This document shows positions 29,174 to 47,142 of a stretch of DNA of 47,311 nt, piece after piece; position 1 is the stretch's first letter, and every line of letters begins with the position of its first letter. Source of the stretch: Acidithiobacillus montserratensis (GTDB lineage: Bacteria; Pseudomonadota; Gammaproteobacteria; Acidithiobacillales; Acidithiobacillaceae). The stretch spans positions 1 to 47,311 of the forward strand of contig NZ_JABBOU010000093.1 in the NCBI RefSeq assembly GCF_018853465.1, read 5' to 3'. The notes under the pieces were generated by a model that did no database searches, was not told where the DNA came from, and saw only the letters and a program-made list of their open reading frames with translations. A program made the translations under genes and the position numbers.

Positions 29174-29379
29174 GTCTACCCGGTAGACGAAGATGCCTAT
29201 CTCGAAATCGTATCGTGGAATTTCGCGAATAAATTTGTCTACCCGGTAGACGAATTCAAAAAGAGCGCATGCCGGATTGGTGCTTTCGCATTATTGGCGC
29301 GTCTACCCGGTAGACGAAGATACCTGTCTCGAACTCGAATCGTTGATTTTATCGAACAAATTTTGTCTACCCGGTAGAT
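29174..29379. repeat. Phased palindrome array, left part
   Basis: Four copies of the 15-bp palindrome GTCTACCCGGTAGAC (7-bp arms around a central C; the last copy ends GAT) are centred at 29181, 29244, 29308 and 29372, spacing 63, 64 and 64 bp. Spacer sequences alternate between two types, giving an approximately 127-bp compound unit. The array continues at 47187 on the other side of the transposon. Sequence from 28965 to 29384 has no gene. Confidence 0.92.
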
Positions 29380-29384
29380 AAATC
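29377..29384. repeat. 8-bp target site duplication, left copy
   Basis: GATAAATC directly outside the left transposon end equals 47135-47142 directly outside the right end. ISL3-family elements typically make 8-bp duplications. Confidence 0.9.
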
Positions 29385-29410
29385 GGGTATTCGTAATTTG
29401 TTGTGTATGG
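29385..29410 (+). repeat. Left terminal inverted repeat (site A)
   Basis: GGGTATTCGTAATTTG followed by TTGTGTATGG. The first 16 bases are the exact complement of 47119-47134. The same 26 bases recur at 35664-35689. Confidence 0.92.
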
Positions 29411-29437
29411 CGCATCAATTTTGGTTGTGCGTTCAGT

Positions 29438-29509
29438 TTCCAAAATCGTAATATCTTGTGTATGACGTGGGACGTGTTTGGTTTCCAAAATCGTAATTAC
29501 CTGTGTACG
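29438..29509 (+). repeat. Left-end subterminal sites B and C
   Basis: Two more copies of the core TCGTAATnnCTGTGTA-like motif follow the end: site B (core at 29446, TTCCAAAATCGTAATATC then TTGTGTATGACG) and site C (core at 29491, CCAAAATCGTAATTAC then CTGTGTACG). Core spacing A-B-C is 55 and 45 bp. They look like repeated transposase binding sites. Confidence 0.8.
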
Positions 29510-29593
29510 CTGCACAGGTGCTATCCCGCATCCGTTGAAACAGCCCGGCCATAGCCTGGATGTCAGTCATCCAGACTGTCACAAAAAGTTCAC

Positions 29594-29621
29594 TTGCATT
29601 TTCTCTATCTTCGACTATCTT
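29594..29621 (+). promoter_or_regulatory. Promoter of the first Rhs gene
   Basis: TTGCAT (29594-29599) and TATCTT (29616-29621) are separated by 16 bases. The two other Rhs starts in the element (35873, 38064) have the same boxes with the same spacing, behind the same CTGTCACAAAAAGTTCA block, while the spacer and leader differ between this copy and the others. Confidence 0.75.
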
Positions 29622-29666
29622 AATCGGCAAATCTTAAACATCACTGTAAACTCAGGAGGATACCCG

Positions 29667-32600
29667 ATGTCCACTCGAACACAGGCCGCACTGTTGATTG
29701 ATACACACCATCCTTTCCCGGAACCGCTGATACCGGACGGAACCCCCAAAGAAACGGATACCACCGCCCTTCAGGCCGCCATCACTGCATGGGAACGCAG
29801 TGGGCGGCCTGATTCATTGGGGGATATGGAAGCTTTCCTCGATCAACATCCGCAGTCGGCCTGGTCTCTGGCATTGCAGGCAAACCTGGGTATCCTGTGC
29901 GCCTCCCAGGCGCAGTTCGGAAAAGCGCTCGACTGGCTGGAGCGTACTTTTGTAGCGGGAGAAGCCGCTACAGCGGTCAACCTGCGGCGACTCATGGATC
30001 GGGTGCTGGGCGAGTTATTGCATTTGCACGCCCGATTGGGGAGTGTGGAATCTCTGGACCGCTGGCTGCAGGAAGCGGATCGACGCGCCTTGCAGGGGTC
30101 CGCATTTCAATATCGTAGCGAGGCCCGGATGGCCTTGTGGAGCTTACGAAATCAGACGGGGGTGGCCCATCGCTGTGGAGCAGCAGCCGTCAAAGAGGTG
30201 CTGTTAGCCCAAGACGGCAAGCCTGCCCAAGCCCTGCTCAAAACCCTGGAGAGCGCACGTTCCGGTCCAGAAGGGATGACCTTGGCCGATCTGGAACGTC
30301 TCGCCGGAGAAGCGGGCCTGACCTTGCAGGCATTCCGCCGGGTAGACCCCCAAGCCGAAATCCCGGTACCGTCCGTCGTACACTGGCAGGTTGGTCATTT
30401 CGGGACACTGCTGGCTTTCCAGAATGGAAAATATCTCTTGCGGGACAGTGTTTATCCGCAGGAGCGATGGATTCATGGAGATATCCTGCGCCAGGAAGGC
30501 AGTGGGTATTTTCTGTTGCCTGAAGCCGTTCCGGGTTTTGAAGGTCTGGACACGGCACAAAAGGCACTTTGTACTGGACGCGGTTATGTCAGCGGCAAGC
30601 GGGCACTCACACCCAAAAGTCAGAAAATCAAAAACCCAACCTGTAAACATAAAGATGGTATGGCCACATACAATGCTTTTGCCTCAACGGTGGCTCTGAC
30701 GATCGATGACCAGCCATGGAGTTACACGCCACCCAAAGGACCTGCAGTCGCGTTCCGTTTAGCTTATAATCAAAGGGATACGCAGCAACCAGCGAATTTT
30801 TCATTTTCCAATGTGGGACATCAGTGGGGCCATGGCTGGATGAACTGGATTCAGGACATTCCCGGAGAACCCGGCAACAGTGTTATCGGCTATGAACCAT
30901 CTGGAGCCGTCCTTTATTATTCGGGTTATGACGCCAGTACGGGCGCATTCGCACCGCAAAGTAGTGACGGTTCCATTCTGACCATGGTGTCGCAGGACCC
31001 CGTGCGCTATGTCTTGCAACGACCGGATGGCAGCCAGGAAATTTATGCCCAAAATACAGGGGCTATCAATGGTACACGCACCATCCTGCTCTCCCAGCTG
31101 CAGGATGCTTCCGGGAACGTCCTGAGTCTCAGCTATGACGCACAAAACCGACTGATCACCGTCACCGATGCGCTGGGGCAAAAGAGCACGCTCCAGTATG
31201 GAGACACGCAGGATGACCTGCTCATCACCCAGGTCACCGACCCCTTCGGGCGTACGGCAACGCTGGCCTACGATGACACGGGACGATTGATCTCCATCAC
31301 CGATGTGTTAGGCATGGTTTCGGCCTTCACTTATGACGATGGCAGCTTTATCAACACGCTGACTACTCCATACGGCAAAAGTCAATTCAGTTATGGCGAA
31401 GACGGTACGCAGAACTGGCTGAATCTGACGGACGCATTGGGTCAGACCGAGCGGGTTGAGTTCAACCAGAATGCGCCGGATATTCCCTTTAGTGATCCCG
31501 TTGCTCCAGAAGGCATGAACCTGTTCAATGCCTATCAGATGGACCGTAACAGTTTTTATTGGGACGCCCATGCTTGGGCAGCGGGCGGGGAGGATTATGC
31601 CAACGCGCATTTGTATCATTGGCTCCACTGGGAACCCAATACCAGCCTGGCCTCTGGCGTCCTGGAAAGCCAGAAAGACCCATTGACCCGTAGGGTCTGG
31701 TACAACTACCCAGGACAGGTCTGGAGTGGTGGAACGGGGACGCTCAATCTCCCATCCTTGATCGGATTGGTTTTAGAGGACGGTACCACCCAACTGACAC
31801 AAATGGGCTATGGAGATTACGGACACATCAACAGTTTCATTGACCCCGCCGGGCGAGAAACCCTCTTTACCTATGCCGCCAACGGTATTGACCTGATTGA
31901 TGTGGCCCAGAAAACACAAAGTGGTCAGGACCTGCTGTTCCAGGCCACCTATGACCACCGTCACCTGCCCCTGACCATTACCGACGCCGCAGGCCAGAAA
32001 ACCACCTTCACCTACAACGAGGCGGGCCAGCCGCTGACCGTCAACAACGCCCTGGGGCAGATCACCACCTACATCTATGACGCCCAAGGCTATTTGACGG
32101 AGATCCGCAATGCCAACGACGTCACCGCGTCGCGCTTCACCTACGATGCCGCTGGTCGGGTGGCCACCGTCACTGACGCTGAGGGATATACCCTGAGCTT
32201 ACTGTACGACGCCCTGAACCGTCTTACCGAAGTGCATTATCCCGATGGAACTCATCGCACCTACACTTACGACAAACTGGATCTGTCCAGCCAGACTAAT
32301 CGTCTGGGAGTCACCACTAAATATACCTATGATGCCGTGCGTCGTCTTGTGTCGGTCACGAATCCATTAGGGCAGGTCACAGCCTATGGCTACAACAAGG
32401 CAGGCTACCTCACCAGCTTGACGGACCCGGCGGGCAACATCACCACCTGGGAACGGGATATTCAGAATCGGATCACGGCCAAGGTCTACGCCAACGGGAC
32501 GAAAGAAACGTATACCTACGATCCCGCCACGGGCCAGTTGGCTACCGTCACGGACGCCATGGGGCAGGTCAAGACCTACGGCTATACCATCGACGAGCAG

Positions 32601-34334
32601 ATCAGCACCGTGGCTTATACGGATACACGGGTAGACACGCCCAATGTCTCCTTTACCTACGGACAGGACTACCCGCGCCTGCTCAGTCGCAGTGATGGCA
32701 TCGGCAATACCCTCTATGCCTATAATCCCGTGGGAGAACCGGGTGCCGGTCAGGTGGGTCAGAAAACCACCCCGCACGGGACCATTGATTTCGGCTATGA
32801 CGCTCTGGGTCGGCGGATCAGCCGTCGGGTGGGCGACACGGAAGAAACTTTCGCCTATGACGCCATTGGCCGGGTCATTGAACAGACTAATCCCCTGGCG
32901 ATGTTCACGATGGAGTATCTGGGTCAAAGCGACCGCCCCACGGCGATTTTGCCCGAAAACGGTTTGCTCGACACCTACTTCCGCTATGGGGCGCAACAGG
33001 AAGACCGCCGTTTACGGGCAATCACCCACAATGCCGCGTTTCCCCTGCAGGCGATGGACTTTCTGTACCAGAGCAATGCAGAGGACCAGCTGACCAGCGC
33101 CACGGACATCGGCGGCAGCATCATTCCCAAGTGGAAGCATTATCAGTACGACTCGGCCGGGCGGCTGACCCTGGAGAATGCGCTGTTGGGCGGACTGAGC
33201 ACCTTCCAGTATGATCCCGCCGACAACATGACCTCCATGCAGGCCCCGGAAGGCTCCTGGACGGCCACCTACAACGATGTGAATGAGCTGGTCTCTCGTG
33301 ATGACCATACCTACAGCTATGACGTCAACGGCAATATGACCGGCGACGGTATCCGCACCTACACCTGGGATGCGGAGAACCGTCTGGTCGGAATCGGTTA
33401 TGTGGATCATCCCGAGAAAAAGAGCAGCTTTCAGTATGACGGTCTCAACCGCCGGGCGGTGATGGTGGAGACCCATGGCAGCGCATCCACGACCAGCACA
33501 TTCCTGTGGGACGGTACGGACCTGCTGATGGAGCAGACTGAAAAGGAAACGAAGTGGTACTACCCGCAGGGTGAAATCCACGGAAAGGAAAGTCTTTTTT
33601 ATGTCAGCGACCGACTGGGTTCCGTGCGGGAGACGGTGAATCAGGATCACCTGATTACCGCCCGCATGAGCTACACGGCGTATGGGGAAACTCAGACCGC
33701 GTTGACGCCGTTCGTCGGCAAGGCTCCCGACTATCGCTATGCGGGGCTGTTCTTTCATGAGCAGAGTGGGCTCTATCTGGCGGTGTTCCGGGCTTATGAT
33801 CCCAAGGCAGGACGGTGGATCAACAGAGACCCGATTGGTGAAGATGGTGGAGTGAATTTATATGCATATTCTGAAACAGATCCAGTAAGCAATCTGGACG
33901 ACTTAGGTTTAAAAACTTTCATTGTTTATAAACCACTGCCTCATTCTGAAATTTTTCCTGGTGGAGTCGAAGCCCCACCAGGAACCAGCTTTATCGCAGA
34001 GGAAAACTACGCAAGGTCCCATTGGAGCATTTCAGGAATAAGAACTGCATTAGGGCATGGGGGTCTCTTTGACCTTCAGCGAAAAAAATTATGTGACGGT
34101 AATTATGATGTTTTCCCGGCGTATAGAAATGCTACAAATTACGGTGTTGGTGTTTATGAAGGCTCGGTTGGTTGGATGTCATGGCCAGTGGCTTTTATAT
34201 TAAATATGGGATATGCGTTGGAGTACGATAGGAATCCTTGGTCCGTCATTTGGCATGATGCACCATATTGGCGTGCTGGATATCTGGAAGCAAAAAACGG
34301 ACGAGTAGCTACACCTATCGGAACGCTGAAATAA
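29667..34334 (+). CDS. Rhs/YD-repeat polymorphic toxin with N-terminal C39-like peptidase domain
   Basis: Predicted 1555-residue protein. Residues about 35-150 are helical, TPR-like. Residues about 160-290 resemble a C39 cysteine peptidase: Cys170 in AHRCGAAAVKEVL, His244 in WQVGHFGTLL and Asp260 in YLLRDSVYP fit the Cys-His-Asp triad. From about 340 to 1380 run YD repeats (such as FTYDAAGRVATVTDAEG), closed by the Rhs core end GLYLAVFRAYDPKAGRWINR. The last 140 residues are an AT-richer, exchangeable tip; GGLFDLQRK and NYGVGVYEGSVG resemble polymorphic toxin type 44. AGGAGG (29654-29659) fixes the start at 29667. There is no signal peptide. The shell likely encloses the tip, and the peptidase could process the chain. 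The next gene is the candidate immunity protein. Confidence 0.88.
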   Translation: MSTRTQAALLIDTHHPFPEPLIPDGTPKETDTTALQAAITAWERSGRPDSLGDMEAFLDQHPQSAWSLALQANLGILCASQAQFGKALDWLERTFVAGEAATAVNLRRLMDRVLGELLHLHARLGSVESLDRWLQEADRRALQGSAFQYRSEARMALWSLRNQTGVAHRCGAAAVKEVLLAQDGKPAQALLKTLESARSGPEGMTLADLERLAGEAGLTLQAFRRVDPQAEIPVPSVVHWQVGHFGTLLAFQNGKYLLRDSVYPQERWIHGDILRQEGSGYFLLPEAVPGFEGLDTAQKALCTGRGYVSGKRALTPKSQKIKNPTCKHKDGMATYNAFASTVALTIDDQPWSYTPPKGPAVAFRLAYNQRDTQQPANFSFSNVGHQWGHGWMNWIQDIPGEPGNSVIGYEPSGAVLYYSGYDASTGAFAPQSSDGSILTMVSQDPVRYVLQRPDGSQEIYAQNTGAINGTRTILLSQLQDASGNVLSLSYDAQNRLITVTDALGQKSTLQYGDTQDDLLITQVTDPFGRTATLAYDDTGRLISITDVLGMVSAFTYDDGSFINTLTTPYGKSQFSYGEDGTQNWLNLTDALGQTERVEFNQNAPDIPFSDPVAPEGMNLFNAYQMDRNSFYWDAHAWAAGGEDYANAHLYHWLHWEPNTSLASGVLESQKDPLTRRVWYNYPGQVWSGGTGTLNLPSLIGLVLEDGTTQLTQMGYGDYGHINSFIDPAGRETLFTYAANGIDLIDVAQKTQSGQDLLFQATYDHRHLPLTITDAAGQKTTFTYNEAGQPLTVNNALGQITTYIYDAQGYLTEIRNANDVTASRFTYDAAGRVATVTDAEGYTLSLLYDALNRLTEVHYPDGTHRTYTYDKLDLSSQTNRLGVTTKYTYDAVRRLVSVTNPLGQVTAYGYNKAGYLTSLTDPAGNITTWERDIQNRITAKVYANGTKETYTYDPATGQLATVTDAMGQVKTYGYTIDEQISTVAYTDTRVDTPNVSFTYGQDYPRLLSRSDGIGNTLYAYNPVGEPGAGQVGQKTTPHGTIDFGYDALGRRISRRVGDTEETFAYDAIGRVIEQTNPLAMFTMEYLGQSDRPTAILPENGLLDTYFRYGAQQEDRRLRAITHNAAFPLQAMDFLYQSNAEDQLTSATDIGGSIIPKWKHYQYDSAGRLTLENALLGGLSTFQYDPADNMTSMQAPEGSWTATYNDVNELVSRDDHTYSYDVNGNMTGDGIRTYTWDAENRLVGIGYVDHPEKKSSFQYDGLNRRAVMVETHGSASTTSTFLWDGTDLLMEQTEKETKWYYPQGEIHGKESLFYVSDRLGSVRETVNQDHLITARMSYTAYGETQTALTPFVGKAPDYRYAGLFFHEQSGLYLAVFRAYDPKAGRWINRDPIGEDGGVNLYAYSETDPVSNLDDLGLKTFIVYKPLPHSEIFPGGVEAPPGTSFIAEENYARSHWSISGIRTALGHGGLFDLQRKKLCDGNYDVFPAYRNATNYGVGVYEGSVGWMSWPVAFILNMGYALEYDRNPWSVIWHDAPYWRAGYLEAKNGRVATPIGTLK

Positions 34335-34352
34335 AAAGCGGGTTTATGCGCC

Positions 34353-34772
34353 ATGATAGGGCTAAGTGCTTTTCGTATTTTGGGACCTGTTTTCCCTGCA
34401 GTATTTGGTGGTGGCTCTCTTTATTTGGGATATGTAAGTATAGTGTTTATCTCTGGAGCAGATAAACACTACAAGACTTTTGGCGCTATTTGGTCATCCG
34501 TGTCAACAGTGTGGGGATATATTGTAATAGACAATAAGCTGAGCCATTTTATGGATTTCAGATATTCGGTGAGTCAGGATATAATTTCTTTTGAGCTTTG
34601 GTATATCCTTGCGCCAACCATCCTATTTATTTTATTTCGTTTAATGCAAAAACCAGTATTAAAGCATCTCGCTGGTGAAACTTTAGCCATCATCTTGGTA
34701 TTAAATTTTGCCTTTTGGATGGGGATTTTCAGCATAGCAATTGCAATGGCAGCTGCTTTTATAATATCCTGA
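34353..34772 (+). CDS. Small membrane protein, candidate immunity to the first Rhs toxin
   Basis: Predicted 139-residue protein with about four membrane segments (residues about 8-30, 43-58, 82-100, 113-137). It starts 18 bases after the Rhs stop and is AT-rich like the toxin tip. In Rhs loci the immunity gene normally follows the tip and is exchanged with it. A membrane location suggests protection at the envelope. I recognise no family. The gap to the patatin (34773-34834) has a weak ATTGAAT/ATTCAAT hairpin. Confidence 0.65.
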   Translation: MIGLSAFRILGPVFPAVFGGGSLYLGYVSIVFISGADKHYKTFGAIWSSVSTVWGYIVIDNKLSHFMDFRYSVSQDIISFELWYILAPTILFILFRLMQKPVLKHLAGETLAIILVLNFAFWMGIFSIAIAMAAAFIIS

Positions 34773-34834
34773 ACAGATTGAATATTATCAATTCAATTAG
34801 TGGAGTTGTGTCAATCGCGATCTAGGGATTTACT

Positions 34835-35656
34835 GTGATTTCACGTCCCATACAGGTTGCCCTCAGCGGTTCGGGTTTTCTACTGCCGGTACACGTCGGC
34901 GCTTTGCAGGCCATCGAAGACGCCGGATATGCGATCTCGGCCCTGAGTGGCACTTCGGGCGGCGCGATTGTGGCCGCCATATACGCGGTACAGCAGGATG
35001 CCCAGAAGCTGGCTGATTTGGTTCTAGCGACGGACTGGAGACCGTTCATGGATTTTGAATCCTGGACCAACGGCTGGCGACTGCTGACCCGACGGGGTAT
35101 CTGCGCAACAACCGCCCTGGACACCTTTCTGATCCAACAGACGGAAGGCCAGTCCTTCGCAGATCTGTCGATGGAGCTATTCATTTGCGCGACCAACCTG
35201 CTGCGAGGAGAGCGTCGGGTATTTTCTCGTGCCACCACACCGGATCTCCCTATTGCCACGGCAGCCAGGGCATCTTCATCGCTGCCCTTTGTCTATCCAC
35301 CCAAACGCATTCAGAATCGTTATTACGTTGATGGTGGTCTGACGGATAACATCCCCGGCAACATTTTACCCGATCATCCGCAGATCCCCTCCGTGGGTGT
35401 TTACCTGGTCGGCACGCCACCACGCCTGCATGAGAATGAACCGACCCTTTTCGCACTGACATCCCTGAGCGTGCGAGATCTTTTGCGTGGTCAGGAATAT
35501 CTGGACCGTCATGCCGCCTCCTGGGTCCGCTTCGTGGCGGTGAATACGGGAAATCTGAATATGCTCGACGCCGGCATGTCTCGTGAGACACGTACACGCC
35601 TGATGCGCATGGGTTATGAGCATATGAAAACCCTGCTCGCAGAAATTCCCCACTAA
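34835..35656 (+). CDS. Patatin-like phospholipase, copy 1
   Basis: Predicted 273-residue lipid acyl hydrolase from GTG at 34835, with AGGGA just upstream. The catalytic Ser41 lies in SGTSGGA (GxSxG) and Asp166 in YVDGGLTDN (DGG), forming the patatin Ser-Asp dyad. The oxyanion loop is LSGSGFLLPVHVGAL, a variant of the usual GGGxRG. SSSLPFVYPPKR is also conserved. It likely cleaves phospholipids or lipids in the cytosol or after export. A close paralog (44167-45006) stands in the same relative place after the second Rhs module, so the pairing looks functional. Patatins are known effectors in interbacterial conflict; that role here is inference. Confidence 0.9.
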   Translation: MISRPIQVALSGSGFLLPVHVGALQAIEDAGYAISALSGTSGGAIVAAIYAVQQDAQKLADLVLATDWRPFMDFESWTNGWRLLTRRGICATTALDTFLIQQTEGQSFADLSMELFICATNLLRGERRVFSRATTPDLPIATAARASSSLPFVYPPKRIQNRYYVDGGLTDNIPGNILPDHPQIPSVGVYLVGTPPRLHENEPTLFALTSLSVRDLLRGQEYLDRHAASWVRFVAVNTGNLNMLDAGMSRETRTRLMRMGYEHMKTLLAEIPH

Positions 35657-35663
35657 AAGAAAG

Positions 35664-35788
35664 GGGTATTCGTAATTTGTTGTGTATGGCCCCAGATTTT
35701 CCGGGAGATGTCCACGTTCCAAAGTCGCAATAACTTGTGTATGGGCGAGCGCGTGTCCAATGTTCAAAATCGTAAAATCCTGTGTATT
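35664..35788 (+). repeat. Internal second copy of the transposon left end
   Basis: Starts with the same 26 bases as the outer left end (35664-35689), followed by sites B (core 35725) and C (core 35770) at the same 55 and 45 bp spacing. Linker sequences differ. It begins 8 bases after the patatin stop. Paired with the right end it would define a shorter element of 11,471 bp. Confidence 0.88.
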
Positions 35789-35851
35789 GTCTGAGCGTTT
35801 TTCTGAGTGCAGTGGATGGTCCATGTCGAACAGGACGTGAACTGCAGCCCC

Positions 35852-36089: not shown

Positions 36090-36244
36090 TGCGAGGTAAC
36101 TCTGATCAGAAACTTGCATGGTCTTGTGGAGCCCGTGTAGCTAGATAGTGATGCATCAGGAGTTTATCCAGAAGTATTGCGACAACTGAGCGTTGTGCGG
36201 AAAACGTGTAAAATGCTGAATGTATTTTAAAAGGAGAATGTTTC

Positions 36245-36604: not shown

Positions 36605-36610
36605 AAGAAC

Positions 36611-38235: not shown

Positions 38236-41200
38236 CTTCAGGCCGCCATCACTGCATGGGAACGCAGCGGGCGGCCTGATTCGTTTGCGGCGCTGGAAAC
38301 GTTTGTTGGGCAGCACCCGGATTCCGCATGGGCAATAGCCGTGCAAGCGAACCTGGGCATCCTTGCGGTGGAACAGGCGTGTTTTTCCGTTGCGCTCCGT
38401 TGGCTCGAACAAGCGTTTCTCGCCGGTCAGGATGTGCAGGAGACGCAGATGAGGTCCTTGGTGGACCGGACGTTAGGCGAATTGCTCAGGCTGTCCGCCA
38501 GACTGGGGGATGTGACGGCGCTCGACCGCTGGCTGCGGATTGCGGATACCCGTTCGATGCGGGGAGCCGCTACCGAGGCCCGCACGGCGGCACGAATCGC
38601 GTTGTGGAGTCTGCGTAATCAGACGGGTGTGGCGCACCGTTGCGGTGCAGCCGCCCTCAAGGGAGTGTTGCTGGCGAAAGAACCATCACCGGCCCTGCCG
38701 ATCCTGAAAACCTTGGAAAGTGCCCGCTCCGGTATCGATGGGCTGAACCTTCTGGATCTGGAGCAATTGGCGACAGAGGTTGGCATCGTCTTGCAGGCGG
38801 TGCATCGGGAGGATGCGAAAACGCCGGTTACCACGCCCGCTGTTGTGCATTGGAAGGTGGGCCACTTTGCCACGCTCCTGGATTATCGGGACGGTCGCTA
38901 TCTTCTTCGGGACAGCGTGTTCCCCAATGACCGCTGGATTGCGGAGGATACGCTAGATAGCGAAGGCAGTGGGTTCTTTTTGGCATCAACCGTCGCGCCG
39001 GGATTCCGTGCGGCCACCCCTGAGGAGAAGACTGCCACTTTCGGGCGCGGGTATGTGTCGGGGCAGCAGCCCGGGGCGAACAAGAAAGAGTCCACAAAGG
39101 TACCCACCAAGCCCCAGAAGTGTACCGGTATGGCGACCTACACTGCTTACGCCGCCACGGTGTCCCTGGTGATGGAAGACATCCCTTTGGGGTACACCCC
39201 GCCCAAGGGACCGGCTATTGCTCTGGAGATGACCTACGCGCAGCGGGAAGACAGTCAGCCGGCCAATTTCCCCTTTTTCAATTTTGGTCCCAAGTGGAAC
39301 AGCAACTGGCTGGCGTGGATTCAGGACATCCCCGGCGATCCTGGCAACAATGTGAGCCGCGCGATTCCCGGCGGTGGCACCCAATATTACAGTGGCTACG
39401 ACAGCGCGACCGGCCAGTTCACGCCCCAAACCGACAATGGCGCGGTCCTGCAATTGGTGAGCGAGACCCCGGTACGTTACGTGCTCACCAAGGCCGACGG
39501 GAGTCAACAGATCTACGCCCAGAGTAACGGGGCAACGAGCGGTACCCGGTATGTGTTGCTGTCAGAGTTGCGCGACGCCTCTGGCAACACCGTAAGTCTC
39601 AGTTACGATGGCGAACTCCGTTTGACGGAGATCACAGATGCCCTGGGTCAGAAGACCGCCTTCACCTATGGTGACCCCAAAAACCCTCTCCTCGTTACGG
39701 CAGTTACCGATCCTTTCGGGCGCTCGGCGCGGATCGCCTACGACGATACCGGGCGGCTCGTATCCATAACCGATGTCATGGGTATGGTGTCAGGTTTCGC
39801 CTACGACAGTGGCGATTTCATCGAGGCCCTGACGACGCCTTATGGTAAGAGCACGTTCCAGTACGGAGAAGATGGCACCACCCTCTGGCTGGAGATGACT
39901 GATCCCCTGGGAGAGACGTCTTATCTCAAATTCACCCAGAACGCGCCCATCGAGTTCAGCGATCCTATCGCCCCGTCGGGGATGAACCTGTTCAATGCCT
40001 ATCTCATGGACCGCAATTCGTTCTTTTGGGACGCCCACGCCTACGCCCACGGCGGGGTGGATTACGCCAATGCGCACCTCTACCACTGGCTGCATTGGGA
40101 ACCCAACACCAGCCTTTCTTCGGATGTGATAGAAAGCCAGAAAGATCCGCTCACCCGCCGGGTGTGGTACAACTACCCCGGCCAGGTTTGGGGCGGGGCG
40201 ACGGGTACCCTGAATCTTCCCTCGATCATCGGGCGGGTACTGGAGGACGGAACCACCCAGCTCACCCAGATTGGTTACGGAGCTTATGGGCACATCACGA
40301 GCTTCACCGATCCTGCCGGACGCGAAACCTTTTTTACCTACGCGCCGAATGGCGTCGATCTCATCGAGGTGGCCCAGAAAACCGCTAGTGGCCAGGACGT
40401 GCTTTTTCAGGCGACCTACGACCATCGCCACTTGCCCCTGACCATCACCGATGCCGCCGGCCAGCAGACCACCTTTACCTACAACGATGCCGGCCAGCCC
40501 CTGACGGTTACCAATGCCCTGGGACAAGTCACGACCTACCGCTACGATACCCAGGGCTACCTGACGGAAGTCGTCAACGCCAACGCCGTGACCGCCCTCC
40601 GCTTTGCCTATGATGCCTATGGCCGTGTCGCCAGCGTCACCGATGCCGAGGGCTACACCTTGGGATTCCAGTACGATGCGCTCAATCGGCTGACCGAGGT
40701 GCGTTATCCCGATGGCACGACGCGGACCTACGGCTACGACAAGCTGGATCTCGTGAGCCAGACCAACCGTCTGGGCGAGACCACTCGGTACGCCTACGAT
40801 GCGGTGCGTCGCCTCATCGCCGTCACCGATCCCGTGGGTCGCGTCACCCGTTACGGTTATAACGAAGCGGGTTATCTCACCACGCTGACTGATCCGGCCG
40901 GTAACGTCACCACCTGGGAGCGCGACATCCAAAATCGTGTGACGGCGAAAATTTACGCCAATGGCACCAAGGAAACCTATACCTATGATCCGGCCACGGG
41001 GCAATTGGCCACCGTGACCGACGCCATGGGCCAAGTCAAAACCCTCACCTACACCATCGATGAGCGGGTGAGCGAGATCGCCTATACCGATACTCTGGTG
41101 GACACCCCCAACGTGTCATTCACTTACGGTGAGGATTACCCCCGCATCAAGAGCCGTACCGATGGGATCGGCACGACCTTTTACGCCTACAATTCCGTCG

Positions 41201-42780
41201 GCGAGTTTGGGGCAGGGCAGGTGGGGCAGGAAACGACCCCCCACGGTGCTATCGACTGGGAGTACGACTCCCTGGGCCGCAAGGTCAGTCGCCGTGTCGG
41301 CGACGTGGTGGAGAGCACGGAATACGACTTGATTGGCCGGCTTCTCTCGATCACTAACCCCTTAGGCAGTTTCCAGTACGAGTACGCCGGGCAGAGTGAC
41401 CTGCCCACGGCGCTGCTTTCCATTGGCGGAGTCCTGGACACCTATTTCCGCTATGGGCCGCTCAACGAATCCCGGCAACTGCGGGCGATTCACCACAACG
41501 CGCTCTTTCCCTTGCAGGTCATGGATTTTCTGTACCAGAGCGATCCGGAGGACCGGGTGGTGCAGGCGACGGACATCGGGGGGCAACTCATTCCGCAATA
41601 CAAGTCCTACCAATATGACGCGGCTGGACGCCTGACCAATGAAGCCGCGTACCCTGGTGGAGTAACGAATTATCGCTACGACCCAGCGGACAATATCACT
41701 TCGATGCAGGCCCCCGAAGGCTCTTGGACAGCCAGCTACAACGACGTGAACGAGATCGTGGAGCGAAACGACCGATCGTATTCCTACGATGCCAATGGGA
41801 ATCTGACCAGCGATGGGGTTCGCACCTATACCTGGGACGCTGAGAACCGCCTTGTGGCTATCGCTTATATGGATCAGCCCGAGAAGCATAGTCAATTCCA
41901 ATACGATGGCCTGAATCGCCGGGCGATCATGACGGAGACAAACGGTACGGTCAGCGAGACCACGACTTTCCTGTGGGATGGAACCGAGTTGTTGCGCGGG
42001 CAGACCGGGGCGGAGGCCACCTGGTATTACAAGCAAGGTGAGATCCACGGCAGCCGCAAGCTGTACTATGTGCGGGATCGCTTGGGTTCCGTGCGGGAGA
42101 CGGTTGGGGAGGATCACGTCGTTAAGGCGCGGATGAGTTACACGCCCTATGGGGTGACCGAGACGAGGCTGCCGCCATTCATCGGCAAGGCCTCGGATTA
42201 CCGGTATGCCGGCTTGTTCTTCCACGAGCAGAGTGGGCTGTATCTGGCGGTGTTCCGGGTTTACGATCCGGAGGCGGGGCGGTGGATTAGTAGGGACCCA
42301 GTAAATCTAACCATATTGGACAATAAATACACCTACTCCGATAACAATCCATCAAATTATTCCGATTATGCCGGACTACTTGTTACGAACAGATTGCTTC
42401 CTGGTTCACAACTATATTATGACCCGGTCCTACATCAAGCATTCTATGCTCCTCCTTATGCCAGCTTCAGATTGGAGTCGTGGTATGCATCTCACGCACC
42501 TTGGTGGGCTATATTTCCAGCGTTGTGGCACGGTGGAACTTTCGATTATCAGCGGCCAATACCGAACAAGCCAAACATAAATTATACGCAGTATGTGTGC
42601 GCCGCAAATTATGGAGTTGGAGTCTATGAGCGTTCAGAAGGGATACCTGAGTTGATAGCGATTATTGGAAATGCCGCTGTGCTTGCGTTGCATCCGGGAA
42701 CATTCTTGCAAAGATTCAAGGCAGACGAACCGCTTTGGAGTGCCGGATACAAAGGTGGTGCGTTTGTTATAGGAAAATAA
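38134..42780 (+). CDS. Second Rhs/YD-repeat polymorphic toxin with C39-like domain
   Basis: Predicted 1548-residue paralog of the protein at 29667, collinear with it: the core end GRWISRD sits at the same residue number (about 1382) in both. The C39-like triad is kept at Cys170, His244 and Asp260. YD repeats fill about 340-1380. After the core the sequence becomes AT-rich and the tip differs from the first toxin, but keeps HGGTFDYQRP and CAANYGVGVYERSEG, again like polymorphic toxin type 44. AAGGAG precedes the ATG. There is no signal peptide and no PAAR or VgrG-type sequence. A candidate immunity gene follows 60 bases later. Confidence 0.88.
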   Translation: MPSHPNAALLNEGHHPFPEPLIPQGEPGEAEASELQAAITAWERSGRPDSFAALETFVGQHPDSAWAIAVQANLGILAVEQACFSVALRWLEQAFLAGQDVQETQMRSLVDRTLGELLRLSARLGDVTALDRWLRIADTRSMRGAATEARTAARIALWSLRNQTGVAHRCGAAALKGVLLAKEPSPALPILKTLESARSGIDGLNLLDLEQLATEVGIVLQAVHREDAKTPVTTPAVVHWKVGHFATLLDYRDGRYLLRDSVFPNDRWIAEDTLDSEGSGFFLASTVAPGFRAATPEEKTATFGRGYVSGQQPGANKKESTKVPTKPQKCTGMATYTAYAATVSLVMEDIPLGYTPPKGPAIALEMTYAQREDSQPANFPFFNFGPKWNSNWLAWIQDIPGDPGNNVSRAIPGGGTQYYSGYDSATGQFTPQTDNGAVLQLVSETPVRYVLTKADGSQQIYAQSNGATSGTRYVLLSELRDASGNTVSLSYDGELRLTEITDALGQKTAFTYGDPKNPLLVTAVTDPFGRSARIAYDDTGRLVSITDVMGMVSGFAYDSGDFIEALTTPYGKSTFQYGEDGTTLWLEMTDPLGETSYLKFTQNAPIEFSDPIAPSGMNLFNAYLMDRNSFFWDAHAYAHGGVDYANAHLYHWLHWEPNTSLSSDVIESQKDPLTRRVWYNYPGQVWGGATGTLNLPSIIGRVLEDGTTQLTQIGYGAYGHITSFTDPAGRETFFTYAPNGVDLIEVAQKTASGQDVLFQATYDHRHLPLTITDAAGQQTTFTYNDAGQPLTVTNALGQVTTYRYDTQGYLTEVVNANAVTALRFAYDAYGRVASVTDAEGYTLGFQYDALNRLTEVRYPDGTTRTYGYDKLDLVSQTNRLGETTRYAYDAVRRLIAVTDPVGRVTRYGYNEAGYLTTLTDPAGNVTTWERDIQNRVTAKIYANGTKETYTYDPATGQLATVTDAMGQVKTLTYTIDERVSEIAYTDTLVDTPNVSFTYGEDYPRIKSRTDGIGTTFYAYNSVGEFGAGQVGQETTPHGAIDWEYDSLGRKVSRRVGDVVESTEYDLIGRLLSITNPLGSFQYEYAGQSDLPTALLSIGGVLDTYFRYGPLNESRQLRAIHHNALFPLQVMDFLYQSDPEDRVVQATDIGGQLIPQYKSYQYDAAGRLTNEAAYPGGVTNYRYDPADNITSMQAPEGSWTASYNDVNEIVERNDRSYSYDANGNLTSDGVRTYTWDAENRLVAIAYMDQPEKHSQFQYDGLNRRAIMTETNGTVSETTTFLWDGTELLRGQTGAEATWYYKQGEIHGSRKLYYVRDRLGSVRETVGEDHVVKARMSYTPYGVTETRLPPFIGKASDYRYAGLFFHEQSGLYLAVFRVYDPEAGRWISRDPVNLTILDNKYTYSDNNPSNYSDYAGLLVTNRLLPGSQLYYDPVLHQAFYAPPYASFRLESWYASHAPWWAIFPALWHGGTFDYQRPIPNKPNINYTQYVCAANYGVGVYERSEGIPELIAIIGNAAVLALHPGTFLQRFKADEPLWSAGYKGGAFVIGK

Positions 42781-42840
42781 TTCAGTATTCACGTTGTAGC
42801 TTCTGATGCATCAAAATAAACTACGAGGTGATACGGCATT

Positions 42841-43368
42841 GTGACTTGGTACGCAATCTACAAAAGGGTAGAAAACCGTGGTCAAAGCGATATCGAAGTT
42901 AAATACGGCTTTTCATATCCTGCATTTTTCTTTACATGGGTATGGGCGCTATCAAAACGGCTCTACGCTGTAGCATTTGTGTCTTTTCTTTTTGGTCCGT
43001 TAACACCGTTATCCATCGTTTTTTGTATCCTCTCAGTGATGCCGCCAATGTTATGGGTACCAACCGGAAGCAAAAATCTTGAATCTTTTGTGGTGAATGC
43101 GGTGCCATTGTTGTCTGCATGGACTGTGCAGGTGACTATGGGTTTCTGTGGGAACGTTATGTACCGGAAAAAGCTGGAAAAAAGCAGCTTTATTTGCACA
43201 ACGGCCGTTTGCCGTAACCGCAGTATCTCTCAGTGTTACAAACCTCATATTTTCAGACAAATAGTCATCTTTGCAAAAAGCATGAACTATTCCGGCCTTG
43301 TTCCCGGTGTGTTGTTGTCTGTCGTTGTGTTGTGGCTGGCTGTTCATGATCTGTTCCCGGTTGGATAG
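42841..43368 (+). CDS. Membrane protein (DUF2628-like), candidate immunity to the second Rhs toxin
   Basis: Predicted 175 residues from GTG at 42841. VKYGFSYPAFFFTWVWALSK followed by hydrophobic stretches resembles DUF2628 membrane proteins, and GNVMYRKKLEKSSFICTTAV fits their C-terminal soluble part. About three to four membrane segments are expected, the last near the C-terminus (SGLVPGVLLSVVVLWLAV). It is placed exactly where an Rhs immunity gene belongs and is unlike the first immunity candidate, matching the different toxin tip. Confidence 0.65.
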   Translation: MTWYAIYKRVENRGQSDIEVKYGFSYPAFFFTWVWALSKRLYAVAFVSFLFGPLTPLSIVFCILSVMPPMLWVPTGSKNLESFVVNAVPLLSAWTVQVTMGFCGNVMYRKKLEKSSFICTTAVCRNRSISQCYKPHIFRQIVIFAKSMNYSGLVPGVLLSVVVLWLAVHDLFPVG

Positions 43369-43374
43369 ACGCTC

Positions 43375-43697
43375 ATGACTGAAATTCTGCAGCTTCCTAA
43401 ACTCCCTATCCGCCACGTCCAGGATCTCGGTGATCATTACCAGGTCGCGGCGAAAGGCGACAAATTTCTACTGCTTGCCCCACCCGCTATAGTGCGCTTA
43501 ATCGCCGTGGCTGCCCACTTCAGACATGCGCAGATACATCCATGCACGGCATGCGTGTCCTCATCCAGATCGATCGTAAACGCTATCGCCGCAAAGTCTG
43601 CGGCAAAACTGGGTTCAAGCTAATAAGGGCCATGGACACCAAATGGTTGGCGATTACTCGATACGCCCCTGTTGCCGACAGTTCTGGTGGTCAATAG
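43375..43697 (+). pseudogene. ISL3-type transposase N-terminal relic
   Basis: Starts MTEILQLPKLPIRHVQDLGD then HYQVAAKGDKFLLLAPPA, the usual opening of ISL3-like transposases. After a frameshift it continues DTSMHGMRVLIQIDRKRYRR, KVCGKTGFK and AMDTKWLAITR, the second zinc-binding part and its end. Several Cys ligands are lost and everything with the catalytic core is missing. It is a fossil of another insertion sequence between immunity and lysozyme genes. It ends where the lysozyme frame starts. Confidence 0.7.
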
Positions 43698-44170
43698 TGA
43701 TTAGGCTACTTTCTCAACTCCAATCTCAAGAATCCTATCGCCGCTTCGTCTACGACGATGCAACAGGGCATGAGATCGTCCCCGGCTATACGGTTCAGGG
43801 TAACCCCACCATTGGCTATGGCCGCAATCTGATCGCCCAAGGGATATCCGAAGAGGAAGCGCGCGTTCTTTTGGAACGGGACGTCGCGCGAGCTTGGCAC
43901 GAAGTGCGCGAGCATTTGCCCTGGGCGGAGAGCCAACTGTCCGTGGTGCGCTTTGCGGTGCTGGTGAACATGACGTTCAATTTGGGGATTCAGGGATTGC
44001 TGGGTTTTCACGAGATGCTCCAGGCCTTGCAGCAGGGTGACTACGCCGGCGCTGCGGATGCCATGGTTCAGAGTCTTTGGTACCAGCAGACCGGGGAACG
44101 GGCGCGCACCTTGGTGGAACAGATGCGTAGCAATCGATGGCCGGCATTGCCAAGGACCACGGCGTTGTGA
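43697..44170 (+). CDS. Phage-type lysozyme (GH24, endolysin-like)
   Basis: Predicted 157 residues from GTG at 43697. Glu12 and Asp21 in QESYRRFVYDDATG, and Thr38 in NPTIGYGRNL, align with the catalytic Glu11, Asp20 and Thr26 of T4 lysozyme, with a 12-residue insertion between them. FAVLVNMTFNLGIQGLLGF is the conserved second-lobe helix. It cleaves peptidoglycan. There is no signal peptide, so it would need a holin, lysis or a secretion route. Its TGA overlaps the GTG of patatin 2, indicating cotranslation. A role in toxin release or as a companion effector is inference. Confidence 0.85.
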   Translation: MIRLLSQLQSQESYRRFVYDDATGHEIVPGYTVQGNPTIGYGRNLIAQGISEEEARVLLERDVARAWHEVREHLPWAESQLSVVRFAVLVNMTFNLGIQGLLGFHEMLQALQQGDYAGAADAMVQSLWYQQTGERARTLVEQMRSNRWPALPRTTAL

Positions 44171-45006
44171 ACCATCCGGTTGCGGGGTCCAAAAAGCCGA
44201 TCCAGGTAGCGCTGAGCGGCTCCGGTTTTCTGCTGCCCGTGCATTTGGGGGCATTGCAGGCCATCGAAGCCGCCGGGTACCGTGTCTCTGCTTTGAGTGG
44301 TACGTCGGGTGGCGCTATCGTGGCCGTCCTTTACGCGGTGCATCGAGACATTCCGTCTTTGGTGAACCTCGTCCTGGATACCGACTGGCAACCGTTCATG
44401 AATTTCGACTCCTGGACCAACGGCTGGCGTCTCCTGACCCGGCGGGGTATCTGCGCGACCGCAGCCCTCGATGCTTTTCTGACCCGGCACACACAAGGAC
44501 AATCCTTTGCCGACCTTGACCTGGAGCTTTTCGTCTGCGCTACGGACTTGCTGCGTGGGCAACGCACCGTTTTCTGTCGAGCGGAAACGCCGGAACTGCC
44601 TGTCGCAAAGGCAGCCAGAGCGTCGTCCTCGTTGCCTTTTGTCTATCCACCCAAGCGGGTCGATGGGAGGCTCTATGTGGATGGCGGTCTGACCGACGAC
44701 ATACCGGGCGACGTGCTTCCCAAAGATAGCGAGGTTCCTTCTGTCGGCGTCTACTTGACGGGAGAACCACCCAGGCTTCACGGGAACGAACCGACGCTTT
44801 TCGCCCTGGCATCGCTGAGCGTGCGCGATCTGCTGCGTGGGCAGGAATACCTGGACCGGCATGCCGCGCCGTGGGTGCGCTTTCTTCCGGTGGACACCGG
44901 AAACCTGAACATGCTGGACGCCCGGATGCCCAGGACGGACCGGGAACAACTCATGGAGCTTGGACGGGTCGGCATGGAAAAGCTCTTGCAAAATCTCGCC
45001 GCGTAG
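44167..45006 (+). CDS. Patatin-like phospholipase, copy 2
   Basis: Predicted 279 residues from GTG at 44167, whose GTGA overlaps the lysozyme stop and has AAGGA upstream; an in-frame ATG at 44137 would add ten residues. The active Ser47 is in SGTSGGA, the Asp in YVDGGLTDD. It is closely similar over its whole length to the patatin at 34835, including the variant oxyanion loop LSGSGFLLPVHLGAL. It follows the second Rhs/immunity pair, as copy 1 follows the first. Substrate is unknown; phospholipid hydrolysis is the family activity. Confidence 0.9.
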   Translation: MNHPVAGSKKPIQVALSGSGFLLPVHLGALQAIEAAGYRVSALSGTSGGAIVAVLYAVHRDIPSLVNLVLDTDWQPFMNFDSWTNGWRLLTRRGICATAALDAFLTRHTQGQSFADLDLELFVCATDLLRGQRTVFCRAETPELPVAKAARASSSLPFVYPPKRVDGRLYVDGGLTDDIPGDVLPKDSEVPSVGVYLTGEPPRLHGNEPTLFALASLSVRDLLRGQEYLDRHAAPWVRFLPVDTGNLNMLDARMPRTDREQLMELGRVGMEKLLQNLAA

Positions 45007-45040
45007 AAAAATAGACGGCCACCCCATAAACATCTATCAT

Positions 45041-45065
45041 TGACCTCGTAATCTCCTGTGTACGA
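45041..45065 (+). repeat. Solitary subterminal site C of the transposon left end
   Basis: CTCGTAATCTCCTGTGTACG (core at 45046) matches site C of the left ends (TCGTAATTACCTGTGTACG). It lies just before the ORF6N and transposase genes, as if a smaller ISL3 element had its left end overwritten by the patatin cargo. Confidence 0.65.
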
Positions 45066-45072
45066 GAACGAA

Positions 45073-45615
45073 ATGACCGTAGCCGAACCCATGCAGGTAG
45101 AAGCCCTTGCACAGCGGATTTACCGCATACGTGGGCTGCGCGTCATGCTCGATGCTGACCTGGCGGAACTCTACGGGGTCACCACCAAACGGCTCAATGA
45201 GCAGGTCAAGCGCAATTCGGACCGTTTCCCGTCGGACTTCATGTTCCAACTGGACGATGAGGAGTATGCGGCTTTGAGGTCGCAATTCGCGACCTCAAAC
45301 ACCGGGCGTGGTGGCCGCCGGTATCTGCCCTACGCCTTTACCGAACATGGGGCTATCATGGCGGCCACAGTGCTCAACTCCGCCAAGGCCATCGAGATGA
45401 GCGTTTTCGTGGTGCGGGCCTTTGTCCAGTTGCGCGAAATACTGGCAACCCACCAGGAACTGGCCGAGAAACTAGACGCGCTGGAGCGCACCGTATCCAC
45501 CCACGATCAGGCCATCGCCGGGTTGATCAACGCCATCCGGGAGTTGACCCACACTCCTCCGTCCAGGTCTCGCCCTATCGGGTTCACGGCTGACATCCAT
45601 GGTGACGGGCAGTAG
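45073..45615 (+). CDS. ORF6N domain protein
   Basis: Predicted 180 residues from the ATG at 45073; GTG at 45058 is an alternative inside the site C repeat. The N-terminal half has the ORF6N pattern: IYRIRGLRVMLDADLAELYG, TTKRLNEQVKRNSDRFPSDF, MFQLDDEEYAAL and YAFTEHGAIMAATVLNS. Phage antirepressors and many mobile-element regulators use it to bind DNA. A coiled-coil tail follows. It lies 19 bases before the transposase gene, so it may regulate transposition or the cargo. Confidence 0.88.
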   Translation: MTVAEPMQVEALAQRIYRIRGLRVMLDADLAELYGVTTKRLNEQVKRNSDRFPSDFMFQLDDEEYAALRSQFATSNTGRGGRRYLPYAFTEHGAIMAATVLNSAKAIEMSVFVVRAFVQLREILATHQELAEKLDALERTVSTHDQAIAGLINAIRELTHTPPSRSRPIGFTADIHGDGQ

Positions 45616-45634
45616 TTCACGGCGAGGGCACCCC

Positions 45635-47050
45635 ATGGGCGAGAACCCAGCCTCATTAGAATCACCCCCCGATGCCTCGGCCAATATCATTCGGCTACCT
45701 GGTTACGCGATACGCACCCTACGGGAAACAGGACACGATTATCATATACAGATCGAAACTCTGGCACCGACGGCGGTCTGCCCAGCATGTCAGGGTGTCC
45801 AGTGCGTAGGTTATGGCCGTTCAGAACTACTGGTCCATGACCTGCCCATGCACGGGAAACGGGTGGGTCTCTATATTGACGCCCGGCGCTTCAAATGCCG
45901 GGGCTGCGGCAAAACCTTTATGGAATCGCTGCCTGCAGTGGACGGAAAGCGCCGCATGACGGAGCGACTGGCCCATTGGATCGGCCCTCGTTCGCTCAAC
46001 TATACGTTTACCAGTGTCGCCGAAGAAATCGGCGTTACGGAAGGCACCATTCGCAACATCGCCCACGATTATATTGAGGCGCTGGAGCAGACTCACCACT
46101 TCGAGACGCCGGAATGGATGGGTATCGACGAAATCCATCTGCTGCGTCGCCCCCGCGCCGTGATTACCAATCTGCGGGAAAATACCGCCATTGATCTACT
46201 ACCAGATCGCGGCAAGCGGAGCATTCTGCGGTATCTCGCTGCCCTGAAGCAAAGGGATCGCATCCGCACAGTCGCCATGGATATGTGGCGGCCCTACCGA
46301 GATGCAGTTCATGAAGTGCTGCCTGATGCGTCTGTCGTGGTGGACAAGTTCCATGTTCTACGCATGGCCAACCAGTCTATGGATGAACTTCGCCGCTCGT
46401 TGTCTCGCTCCAAAGATGCTGATCGTTTACGTCGGAGGGCCGCAGGGGTCAAGAAAGATGCCTATCTCTTCCGCAAGCGCGAAAAAGATCTGGACGACAG
46501 TGAGCGCCTGATACTCGATGGCTGGCTGCGGAGCATACCGGAGTTGGGCGAGGCATGGCGACTCAAAGAGGGTTTTTACGGTGTCTACGATGCTGACAAC
46601 AAAAAGGACGCCCACCAACGATACATCGTCTGGGCGGCATCCGTCCCACCCGAGTGCCAGAGCGCCTTTCAACCCATTCTCACGGCTTGGCAGAACTGGG
46701 AGCCTTACATCCTGGCCTACTTCGACCAGCAGGTCACCAACGCCTTTACTGAGAGCCTGAACAGCCTGATCCGCGTCACCAACCGCATGGGCCGGGGCTA
46801 CAGCTTTGAGGTACTGCGGGCGAAGATTCTGTTCACCCGGGGCACCCACAAGAAAACCCTGCAGCGACCGAAATTTCGACGAGAGTCGCTGGGCACCACC
46901 GCTTTCTACCACATGGGGATGGCTCTGCCCTTGGAGTCTGATGAAGACCAAACAGAAATCAACTATGGGGTGGATCTTCGGCTGCTCGCAGAGGCGCTGG
47001 ATACCGGCGGGAATGATACCATACACAAATCGCCTCGCGATCTGGGCTAG
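45635..47050 (+). CDS. ISL3-family transposase
   Basis: Predicted 471 residues from the ATG at 45635 (GAGGG ribosome site); an ATG at 45599 would add 12 residues. Domains in order: zinc ribbon (CPACQGVQCVGYG...FKCRGCGKTF), HTH (SVAEEIGVTEGTIRNIAHDY), DDE core with Asp in MGIDEIH, Asp in VAMDMWRPYRDAV and Glu in NAFTESLNSLIR, and VVVDKFHVLRMAN. It is full-length. It lies at the right end of the 17.75-kb element and is the only intact transposase present, so it most likely moved it. Family members make 8-bp duplications, as seen here. Confidence 0.93.
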   Translation: MGENPASLESPPDASANIIRLPGYAIRTLRETGHDYHIQIETLAPTAVCPACQGVQCVGYGRSELLVHDLPMHGKRVGLYIDARRFKCRGCGKTFMESLPAVDGKRRMTERLAHWIGPRSLNYTFTSVAEEIGVTEGTIRNIAHDYIEALEQTHHFETPEWMGIDEIHLLRRPRAVITNLRENTAIDLLPDRGKRSILRYLAALKQRDRIRTVAMDMWRPYRDAVHEVLPDASVVVDKFHVLRMANQSMDELRRSLSRSKDADRLRRRAAGVKKDAYLFRKREKDLDDSERLILDGWLRSIPELGEAWRLKEGFYGVYDADNKKDAHQRYIVWAASVPPECQSAFQPILTAWQNWEPYILAYFDQQVTNAFTESLNSLIRVTNRMGRGYSFEVLRAKILFTRGTHKKTLQRPKFRRESLGTTAFYHMGMALPLESDEDQTEINYGVDLRLLAEALDTGGNDTIHKSPRDLG

Positions 47051-47108
47051 TCCGGTTTTGGACAAATACACAAACGTGGTCAGAGAAGCCTGTGGCCAGG
47101 TTGATGCC

Positions 47109-47134
47109 TCGTAAACACCAAATTACGAATACCC
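47109..47134 (-). repeat. Right terminal inverted repeat
   Basis: CAAATTACGAATACCC (47119-47134) is the complement of the left end; over 26 bases 22 match. Two further ATACACAA motifs inward (47066-47073 and 47031-47038) resemble the TTGTGTAT of the left-end sites in inverted orientation. Confidence 0.9.
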
Positions 47135-47142
47135 GATAAATC
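47135..47142. repeat. 8-bp target site duplication, right copy
   Basis: GATAAATC, identical to 29377-29384. Confidence 0.9.

Follow-up and report, generated by a model that had tools for sequence, protein, structure and literature searches.

A 17,750-bp stretch of the Acidithiobacillus montserratensis genome, located at positions 29385-47134 of the 47,311 nucleotides analyzed here (contig NZ_JABBOU010000093.1, hereafter the window), is in our assessment a unit transposon of the ISL3 family with an island of Rhs polymorphic-toxin genes as cargo, a reading to which we assign a probability of about 0.85. A second left end within this element delimits an inner unit of 11,471 bp (35664-47134), comprising Rhs gene B, a candidate immunity gene, a lysozyme, a patatin, an ORF6N-domain gene and the transposase. 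This inner unit constitutes an independent transposon, because Acidithiobacillus marinus SH harbors it elsewhere, flanked on both sides by a different 8-bp sequence. To our knowledge, the routes by which Rhs toxin genes pass from one lineage to another are poorly worked out. Here, two species contain, at different sites, a complete toxin island bounded by a small transposase with defined ends, which makes the route directly testable.

The larger element is flanked by an exact 8-bp duplication, GATAAATC, and lengths of 7 or 9 bp give no match. Immediately inside lie imperfect terminal inverted repeats starting with GG, as is typical for ISL3 elements, namely GGGTATTCGTAATTTGTTGTGTATGG at 29385 and GGGTATTCGTAATTTGGTGTTTACGA, the reverse complement read from 47134, which agree over the first 20 positions in 19 cases. 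Inverted repeats of at least 17/20 taken alone are common (53 overlapping pairs in the window vs. 4 to 29 in 20 shuffles). In a joint test, an exact 8-bp direct repeat was required together with an inverted repeat just inside it, at least 1 kb apart, and the window was compared with 200 block-shuffled versions of itself. Here, the GATAAATC pair was the best of the window with 19/20, followed by a runner-up of 15/20, while the top score in the 200 shuffled windows was 16/20 and 108 of them lacked any pair of at least 14/20.

The empty site can be reconstructed as well. The flanks of the element form an array of GTCTACCCGGTAGAC-type sites at 64-bp spacing; once the element is removed along with a single duplication copy, the sites at 29365 and 47187 are 64 bp apart, exactly as are those at 47187 and 47251. 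An uninterrupted array unit is present at 47251, and a paralogous array on contig C92 of the same genome runs continuously through the insertion point. A previous sequence-only reading had proposed an ISL3-type transposon of about 17.75 kb with inverted ends and an 8-bp duplication, whose excision would restore the repeat unit and its 64-bp phase, and our analysis agrees on all of these points. The additional left-end copy at 35664 had been overlooked.

The assignment to the ISL3 family is based on three Pfam domains of the transposase, including DDE_Tnp_ISL3, as well as on the NCBIfam model transpos_ISL3, which scores above its cut-off. Consistently, the duplications are A+T-rich and 8 bp long, as seen for GATAAATC in the window, AATTTTCG in A. 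marinus, and GAAATCAT and TGAAAATA at two mini-elements described below. The element contains one ISL3 transposase, and two insertion sequence (IS) copies serving as ends, as in a composite transposon, were not found; the sole other ISL3 transposase match of the genome, on another contig, is 29% identical over 79 residues. Among 13 open reading frames (ORFs) of the element scanned with Pfam, no integrase, relaxase, replication or structural genes were found, the lone lysozyme and the ORF6N gene aside.

The ORF6N gene precedes and overlaps the transposase gene, its product also matches the PADLOC candidate family PDC-S05, and the pair recurs in genomes G003, G008 and G016 (A. marinus SH). In Thiomicrospira microaerophila (locus L169, 5961-8198), an ORF6N gene (42% identical) is located ahead of an ISL3 transposase gene (47%); given this locus, the pair may also occur outside Acidithiobacillus. 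On contig C37 of genome G120 (locus L217, 4458-5012), about 1.1 kb separate an ORF6N gene (51% identical) from an Rhs gene whose product has a similar N-terminus, and no ISL3 transposase match was found in the stretch read.

Both left ends contain, at matching distances, three copies of an 18-bp motif, CGTAATNNNNTGTGTAYG, of which one copy is also found at the right end. With up to two mismatches, the window has 8 matches vs. a mean of 0.4 in 30 shuffles, a descriptive count since the motif was derived from these sites. Among six further left ends (up to four mismatches), motifs appear at +8, +63 and +108 in G002 and G001, at +8 and +63 in G013, G008 (contig C80) and G003 (contig C193), and at +8 only in G012. 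These motifs are putative binding sites of the transposase or the ORF6N protein. The DNA fold of the left end has a z value of -2.9. The features of the element are compiled in Table 1.

Table 1. Features of the 17,750-bp element and its borders (window coordinates).
Position	Strand	Feature	Basis
29377-29384	.	Target-site duplication, left copy (GATAAATC)	Exact repeat, joint test
29385-29410	+	Outer left terminal inverted repeat (IRL-A)	22/26 identical to right end
29392-29509	+	Three copies of CGTAATNNNNTGTGTAYG at +8, +63, +108 of outer left end, candidate transposase-binding sites	Motif count
29667-34334	+	Rhs protein A, 1555 aa: C39-peptidase-like N-terminal domain (residues 169-285), RHS repeats, Rhs core, tip from 33912	Pfam/NCBIfam
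34353-34772	+	Candidate immunity gene A (139 aa)	Position only; 62% identical homologue in G013 Rhs locus
34835-35656	+	Patatin-like phospholipase A	Pfam PF01734, E 3e-32
35664-35689	+	Inner left terminal inverted repeat (IRL-B); in A. marinus, it delimits the 11.47-kb element on the left	Repeat match
35671-35788	+	Three copies of 18-bp motif (0, 1, 2 mismatches) at +8, +63, +108 of inner left end	Motif count
35943-36044	+	Relic of Rhs gene start (34 codons)	Within 192-bp stretch 95% identical to Rhs B start
36245-36604	+	ORF, 119 aa, low-G+C stretch, possible orphan immunity gene	No family match
36801-37910	+	ORF, 369 aa, same low-G+C stretch	No family match
38134-42780	+	Rhs protein B (1548 aa) with a C39-like domain, RHS repeats and, from 42379, a C-terminal tip	Pfam/NCBIfam
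42841-43368	+	Candidate immunity gene B (175 aa)	Position only; DUF2628 match sub-threshold (18.9 vs. 23 bits, Pfam cut-off)
43643-44170	+	Phage-type lysozyme	Pfam PF00959, E 2e-13; partial homologue in G013 Rhs locus
44137-45006	+	Patatin-like phospholipase B	Pfam PF01734, E 3e-30
45047-45064	+	Further 18-bp motif copy just before ORF6N-transposase genes, candidate autoregulation site	Motif count
45058-45615	+	ORF6N-domain gene, paired with transposase	Pfam PF10543, E 8e-36
45599-47050	+	ISL3-family transposase, 483 aa (zinc ribbon, helix-turn-helix, DDE)	Pfam; NCBIfam NF033550, 295 bits (cut-off 180)
47109-47134	-	Right terminal inverted repeat (IRR), common to inner and outer element	Inverted-repeat match
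47135-47142	.	Target-site duplication, right copy (GATAAATC)	Exact repeat, joint test

The central cargo genes show the characteristics of Rhs proteins, featuring YD/RHS repeats, an Rhs core and a variable C-terminal tip. Their N-terminal 422 residues include a C39-like domain, which exceeds the Pfam cut-off of 22 bits in Rhs B (24) and falls just below it in Rhs A (21.3). The residues C170, H244 and D260, which we take to be the catalytic triad, are invariant in an alignment of both window proteins with seven of 44 relatives. In five distant relatives of this alignment, an N-terminal extension resembles a signal peptide, as judged by eye; by the same judgment, it is missing from both window proteins as well as from P0004 and P0005. 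The Rhs genes A and B are 67% identical at the DNA level, and their tips are related yet different (37% identity over 121 columns). Neither tip has a Pfam match at E-values up to 10, and for tip B no solved structural relative was found at E up to 1, the protein search returning its own cluster only. The AlphaFold2 model of tip B reached a mean predicted local distance difference test score (pLDDT) of 36 and was not used. A suspected resemblance of the tips to the toxin-44 family found no confirmation.

Directly after the Rhs genes, small ORFs occupy the places of immunity genes; none of them matches a family above cut-off, and candidate A has no family match at all. The two patatins are 73% identical at the protein level and match phospholipase models of cyclic-oligonucleotide-based antiphage signaling systems (CBASS) weakly. 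The cargo listed in the sequence-only reading is confirmed by Pfam and NCBIfam for the Rhs, patatin and lysozyme genes, while the immunity genes are assigned by their position. The same reading had also suggested a spread of Rhs toxins without a secretion locus. On this point, the analysis covered a single marker, VipB of the type VI secretion system, which was found in none of the three carrier genomes. As a guess, the Rhs proteins could be delivered through lysis brought about by the lysozyme or through processing that involves the C39-like domain. In P0018, a distant relative of the C39-bearing Rhs proteins, a phage-lysozyme domain is listed inside the Rhs protein itself; by comparison, the lysozyme of the element might have descended from an Rhs toxin tip.

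Gene displacement is common in Rhs loci. In the inner unit, a 192-bp direct repeat (95%) of the Rhs gene start, spanning 35852-38234, encloses a stretch of low G+C content (44%) with two ORFs of no known family, and this arrangement is also found in A. marinus. The relic of an Rhs start together with the low-G+C stretch and its orphan ORFs points to at least one past displacement of Rhs genes within the element.

The second left end is a third exact copy of GGGTATTCGTAATTT, found in left-end orientation at 35664, 7 bp past the stop codon of patatin A, and the first 27 bases of IRL-A and IRL-B are identical. In A. marinus SH (genome G016), the complete window sequence from 35664 to 47134 is present at another site, distributed over two pieces: contig C56 extends from the left end, preceded by a flank ending in AATTTTCG, to window position 43934, and contig C63 (NZ_MXAV01000007.1, 66,186 bases) from 43932 to the right end, followed by a flank starting with AATTTTCG. 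This copy differs from the window by three substitutions (42664, 43177 and 44205) and bears a 1.08-kb insertion of the IS30 family at 36535 (NCBIfam transpos_IS30, 343 bits, cut-off 80). By comparison, a 16-kb alignment of the rpoB region is 90.7% identical to A. marinus, 85.6% to G003 and 80.6% to G008. Three substitutions in the inner unit vs. a difference of about 9% in the rpoB region lead us to infer that the element entered at least one of the two lineages recently. The inner package at a different place in another species thereby shows one way in which toxin-like genes can spread. The same Rhs cargo with the same ends at an unrelated site had been set as a test in the sequence-only reading, and the A. 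marinus copy, with its own 8-bp duplication, is such a case. The proposed mobilization of the cargo is likewise supported by the inner unit, which is found at two sites; for the full 17.75 kb, of which no second site was found, movement as one piece is deduced from the outer duplication.

Upstream of the inner unit, module A (29385-35663) consists of Rhs, immunity and patatin genes with their own left end. It is of a different lineage, because its DNA is only 67-76% identical to module B and to the module in G013. Beyond cross-similarity to B, module A was not found in the A. marinus stretches read, and its Rhs and patatin genes had no second match in A. marinus. The position of the duplication at the outer end argues that the whole 17.75 kb probably moved as one unit.

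Based on the arrangement of ends and genes, the following scenario could account for this composite. The transposase, perhaps together with the ORF6N protein, would bind two ends bearing the 18-bp motif and insert the element at an A+T-rich target of 8 bp, thereby duplicating this target. An older relative would have left its left end and its Rhs, immunity and patatin genes directly upstream of the 11.47-kb element. The transposase would then have paired this farther left end with the only right end, and the 17.75-kb composite would thereby have jumped into the 64-bp repeat array. More generally, and as a tentative idea to which we give less than even odds, Rhs-carrying ISL3 transposons might grow by end capture, with left ends and toxin-immunity-lipase modules piling up head to tail before a single transposase and right end, and with one, two or more modules being mobilized according to the left end chosen. 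As the second left end suggests, a complete toxin module could be added to such an island in a single step. If end capture is true, no integrase would be needed to build up toxin arsenals and lose them again in the manner of cassettes.

Alternatively, an element A with its own right half may have occupied the GATAAATC site, element B may have jumped in behind patatin A, and recombination between the right halves may have removed the transposase of A, so that the 17.75 kb never moved as such. This order of events, which we consider unlikely, would equally produce a matching outer duplication and an inner left end devoid of one; in fact, the 8 bp ahead of IRL-B (AAAGAAAG) have no matching duplication. 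However, the right-hand 3203 bp, including the terminal repeat, deviate from A. marinus by a single substitution, yet the DNA divergence between A and B amounts to 28-33% in the Rhs and patatin genes. Because of the 3203-bp match, nested insertion and deletion would need a crossover within the last few bases, or a right end of A nearly identical to that of B.

Several observations weigh against a Rhs-carrying ISL3 transposon that moved as a 17.75-kb unit. The composite was seen only once, and the 27 identical bases of IRL-A and IRL-B leave room for an assembly error at 35664. In A. marinus, the copy is broken at 43932-43934, where C56 continues into unrelated genes; the two halves are linked by the shared 8-bp flank and the match to the window instead of by continuous sequence. 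On the other side of this break, the first 46 bp or so of C63, ahead of window position 43932, match the end of the IS30-family element that is inserted at 36535. Of 11 candidate ends followed elsewhere, two speak in favor of the transposon, as they belong to mini-elements with an exact 8-bp duplication, one of 1193 bp in G002 (ends 14/18) and one of 957 bp in G012 (ends 13/18). A third (locus L071, genome G037) pairs with a perfect partner end but lacks the duplication (4/8), and the other eight showed no partner in the available 0.4 to 9.6 kb, which is mostly masked in L082. Some of these partnerless ends may be chance matches to 15 bases.

Partnerless end-like sequences in the genus, together with the relic Rhs start and the orphan ORFs indicating ordinary Rhs displacement, would also fit an ordinary Rhs island that grew by homologous recombination beside an ISL3 element, its ends being relics that do not mobilize the cargo. 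The same cargo at a second site of another species, with the same ends and another exact 8-bp duplication, makes this very improbable. Just as little credit is due to an assembly artefact, in which the 27 bases shared by both left ends joined separate pieces of a draft genome of 178 contigs and the site really holds the 11.47-kb element alone. Module A would in that case have to reside elsewhere, at a place where patatin A runs into a left end, but no other contig of the genome has a mismatch-free copy of this end.

ISL3 matches were obtained in 27 of 96 genomes (own genome counted), and outside its own genome the window transposase is matched at 100% in G016, at 90% in G008 and at 73% by a fragment in G003, all others reaching at most 59%. 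On contig C17 of G008, a right end, the 90% identical transposase, an ORF6N gene and a patatin gene with a stop codon lie at another site beside unrelated genes. Contig C202 of G013, a genome with 7% contamination, shows a left end with a single mismatch, behind which lie a frame-broken Rhs gene, the homologue of immunity gene A (62%) and 50 residues of the lysozyme (76%). The Rhs N-terminus was detected in three (G000, G016 and G013) of 29 family genomes, each time behind such a left end, and patatin A homologues of at least 48% identity likewise in three (G000, G016 and G008), each in or beside such an element; six other family genomes encode weaker patatins (29-35%).

At the level of the class, relatives of the C39-bearing Rhs protein were matched in 8 of 369 genomes (own included), two of them full-length (G120 and G290), and a plasmid search with the Rhs protein matched 30 records, 8 of which cover 80% of the query. 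For G120, G290 and five of these 8 plasmid records, no ISL3 transposase was found in the stretch read, and megablast of the whole element against plasmids gave no match. On viral contigs, ISL3 relatives were present at 12 loci, and at E 1e-6 the cargo was found at none of them. In Alicyclobacillaceae (locus L179), an ISL3 transposase has RHS-like matches (24-28%) on the opposite strand at a distance of 3 to 7.5 kb, but no partner end was found; in Roseateles (locus L139), a patatin (34%) is located 6 kb from an ISL3 transposase, also on the opposite strand.

To place the element among its kind, sizes were surveyed at 91 of 92 loci with ISL3 relatives (L201, with a partial transposase, was excluded), taken from the best 80 of 568 matches of one search plus the viral-contig loci, with transposases 38-100% identical. 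Both ends, which had to start with GG, were resolved in 30 of the 91, giving 1.85 to 10.6 kb with a median of 3.0 kb; the upstream reach of at most 10 kb favors short elements, and at least one pair among the 30, L172 and L194, of the same size and duplication, may be a single element. The window units of 11.47 and 17.75 kb exceed all 30, though larger ones beyond the 10-kb reach would escape. In two elements, of 6.3 kb and 4.9 kb, the passengers seem by eye to be metabolic or of unknown function. Weak pairs at L122 and L141, from an earlier version of the scan, were discarded. In Tepidibacillus decaturensis (L188, 9848-20454), a 10.6-kb ISL3 transposon has its transposase at the left end and an exact 8-bp duplication, and it holds a second transposase-like ORF (by eye).

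Regarding the surroundings of the element, arrays of the near-palindrome GTCTACCCGGTAGAC, mostly at about 64-bp spacing, are found at 29174-29380 and 47187-47265 as well as on contigs C92, C140, C100 and C119 of the same genome, and they lie behind a Toprim/AAA_25 gene (26357-28405). The adjacent stretch 28200-29096 recurs at 94% in C92, and an array search in 16 other genomes of the genus matched solely non-array parts of the query (three genomes). Outside the element, a PemK/MazF-type toxin gene is encoded at 9252-9686.

Passenger genes as such have been described for ISL3 elements, e.g., for ISPst2, an element of 2,985 bp with an ArsR regulator and a permease (PMC6305408). According to the passages on them, such elements share with ours ends beginning GGGTAT-CG, A+T-rich 8-bp duplications and an ISL3 transposase, whereas the element described here measures 11.5-17.75 kb and has an Rhs toxin cargo, two left ends and a paired ORF6N gene. 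A survey reported ISL3 in all 36 Acidithiobacillus genomes covered, and the words “passenger” and “cargo” are both absent from its main text (PMC10214660).

That transposable elements can carry toxin loci is already known, since a transposon for contact-dependent inhibition/contact-dependent signaling (CDI/CDS) and myxobacterial loci have been reported. The former, from Burkholderia thailandensis, spans about 210 kb with IS2-like elements at both ends (PMC6350997). As described there, it likewise is a transposable element bearing a polymorphic-toxin locus, but it is a composite transposon that belongs to a different IS family, forms a megacircle intermediate and carries CDI genes (bcpAIOB), in contrast to the present unit transposon with one transposase and Rhs genes. 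In myxobacteria, sitAI toxin loci are said to sit on prophages, plasmids or transposons, a likeness in that toxin-immunity loci are carried on mobile elements; the relevant passages name neither the loci on an insertion element nor its family (PMC10047993, PMC10433427). Of the prior art, these loci are the likeliest to lessen the novelty of our finding. In a review table, Rhs is placed under prophages and CDI under transposons (PMC10047993). Furthermore, Rhs proteins that share this C39-like N-terminus and are 39-42% identical as a whole are likewise encoded on mobile DNA, namely on small plasmids of Nitrosospira and Methylosinus, but these two loci have no ISL3 transposase, patatin or lysozyme homologue at E 1e-3.

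In open PubMed Central papers, no report of an Rhs cargo of an ISL3 element, or of its enlargement by a second left end, was found (subscription papers and ISfinder were outside the search). Closest to the latter is an IS1182-type element that uses a distant degenerate end and takes along a neighboring gene (PMC12056078, citing Furi et al.). As described in this source, one transposase there also selects an alternative end and carries what lies between, but the family is a different one, and in the A. montserratensis element a complete ISL3 left end, equipped with a toxin module, takes the role of the alternative end. We regard the double left end as the most original part of the element.

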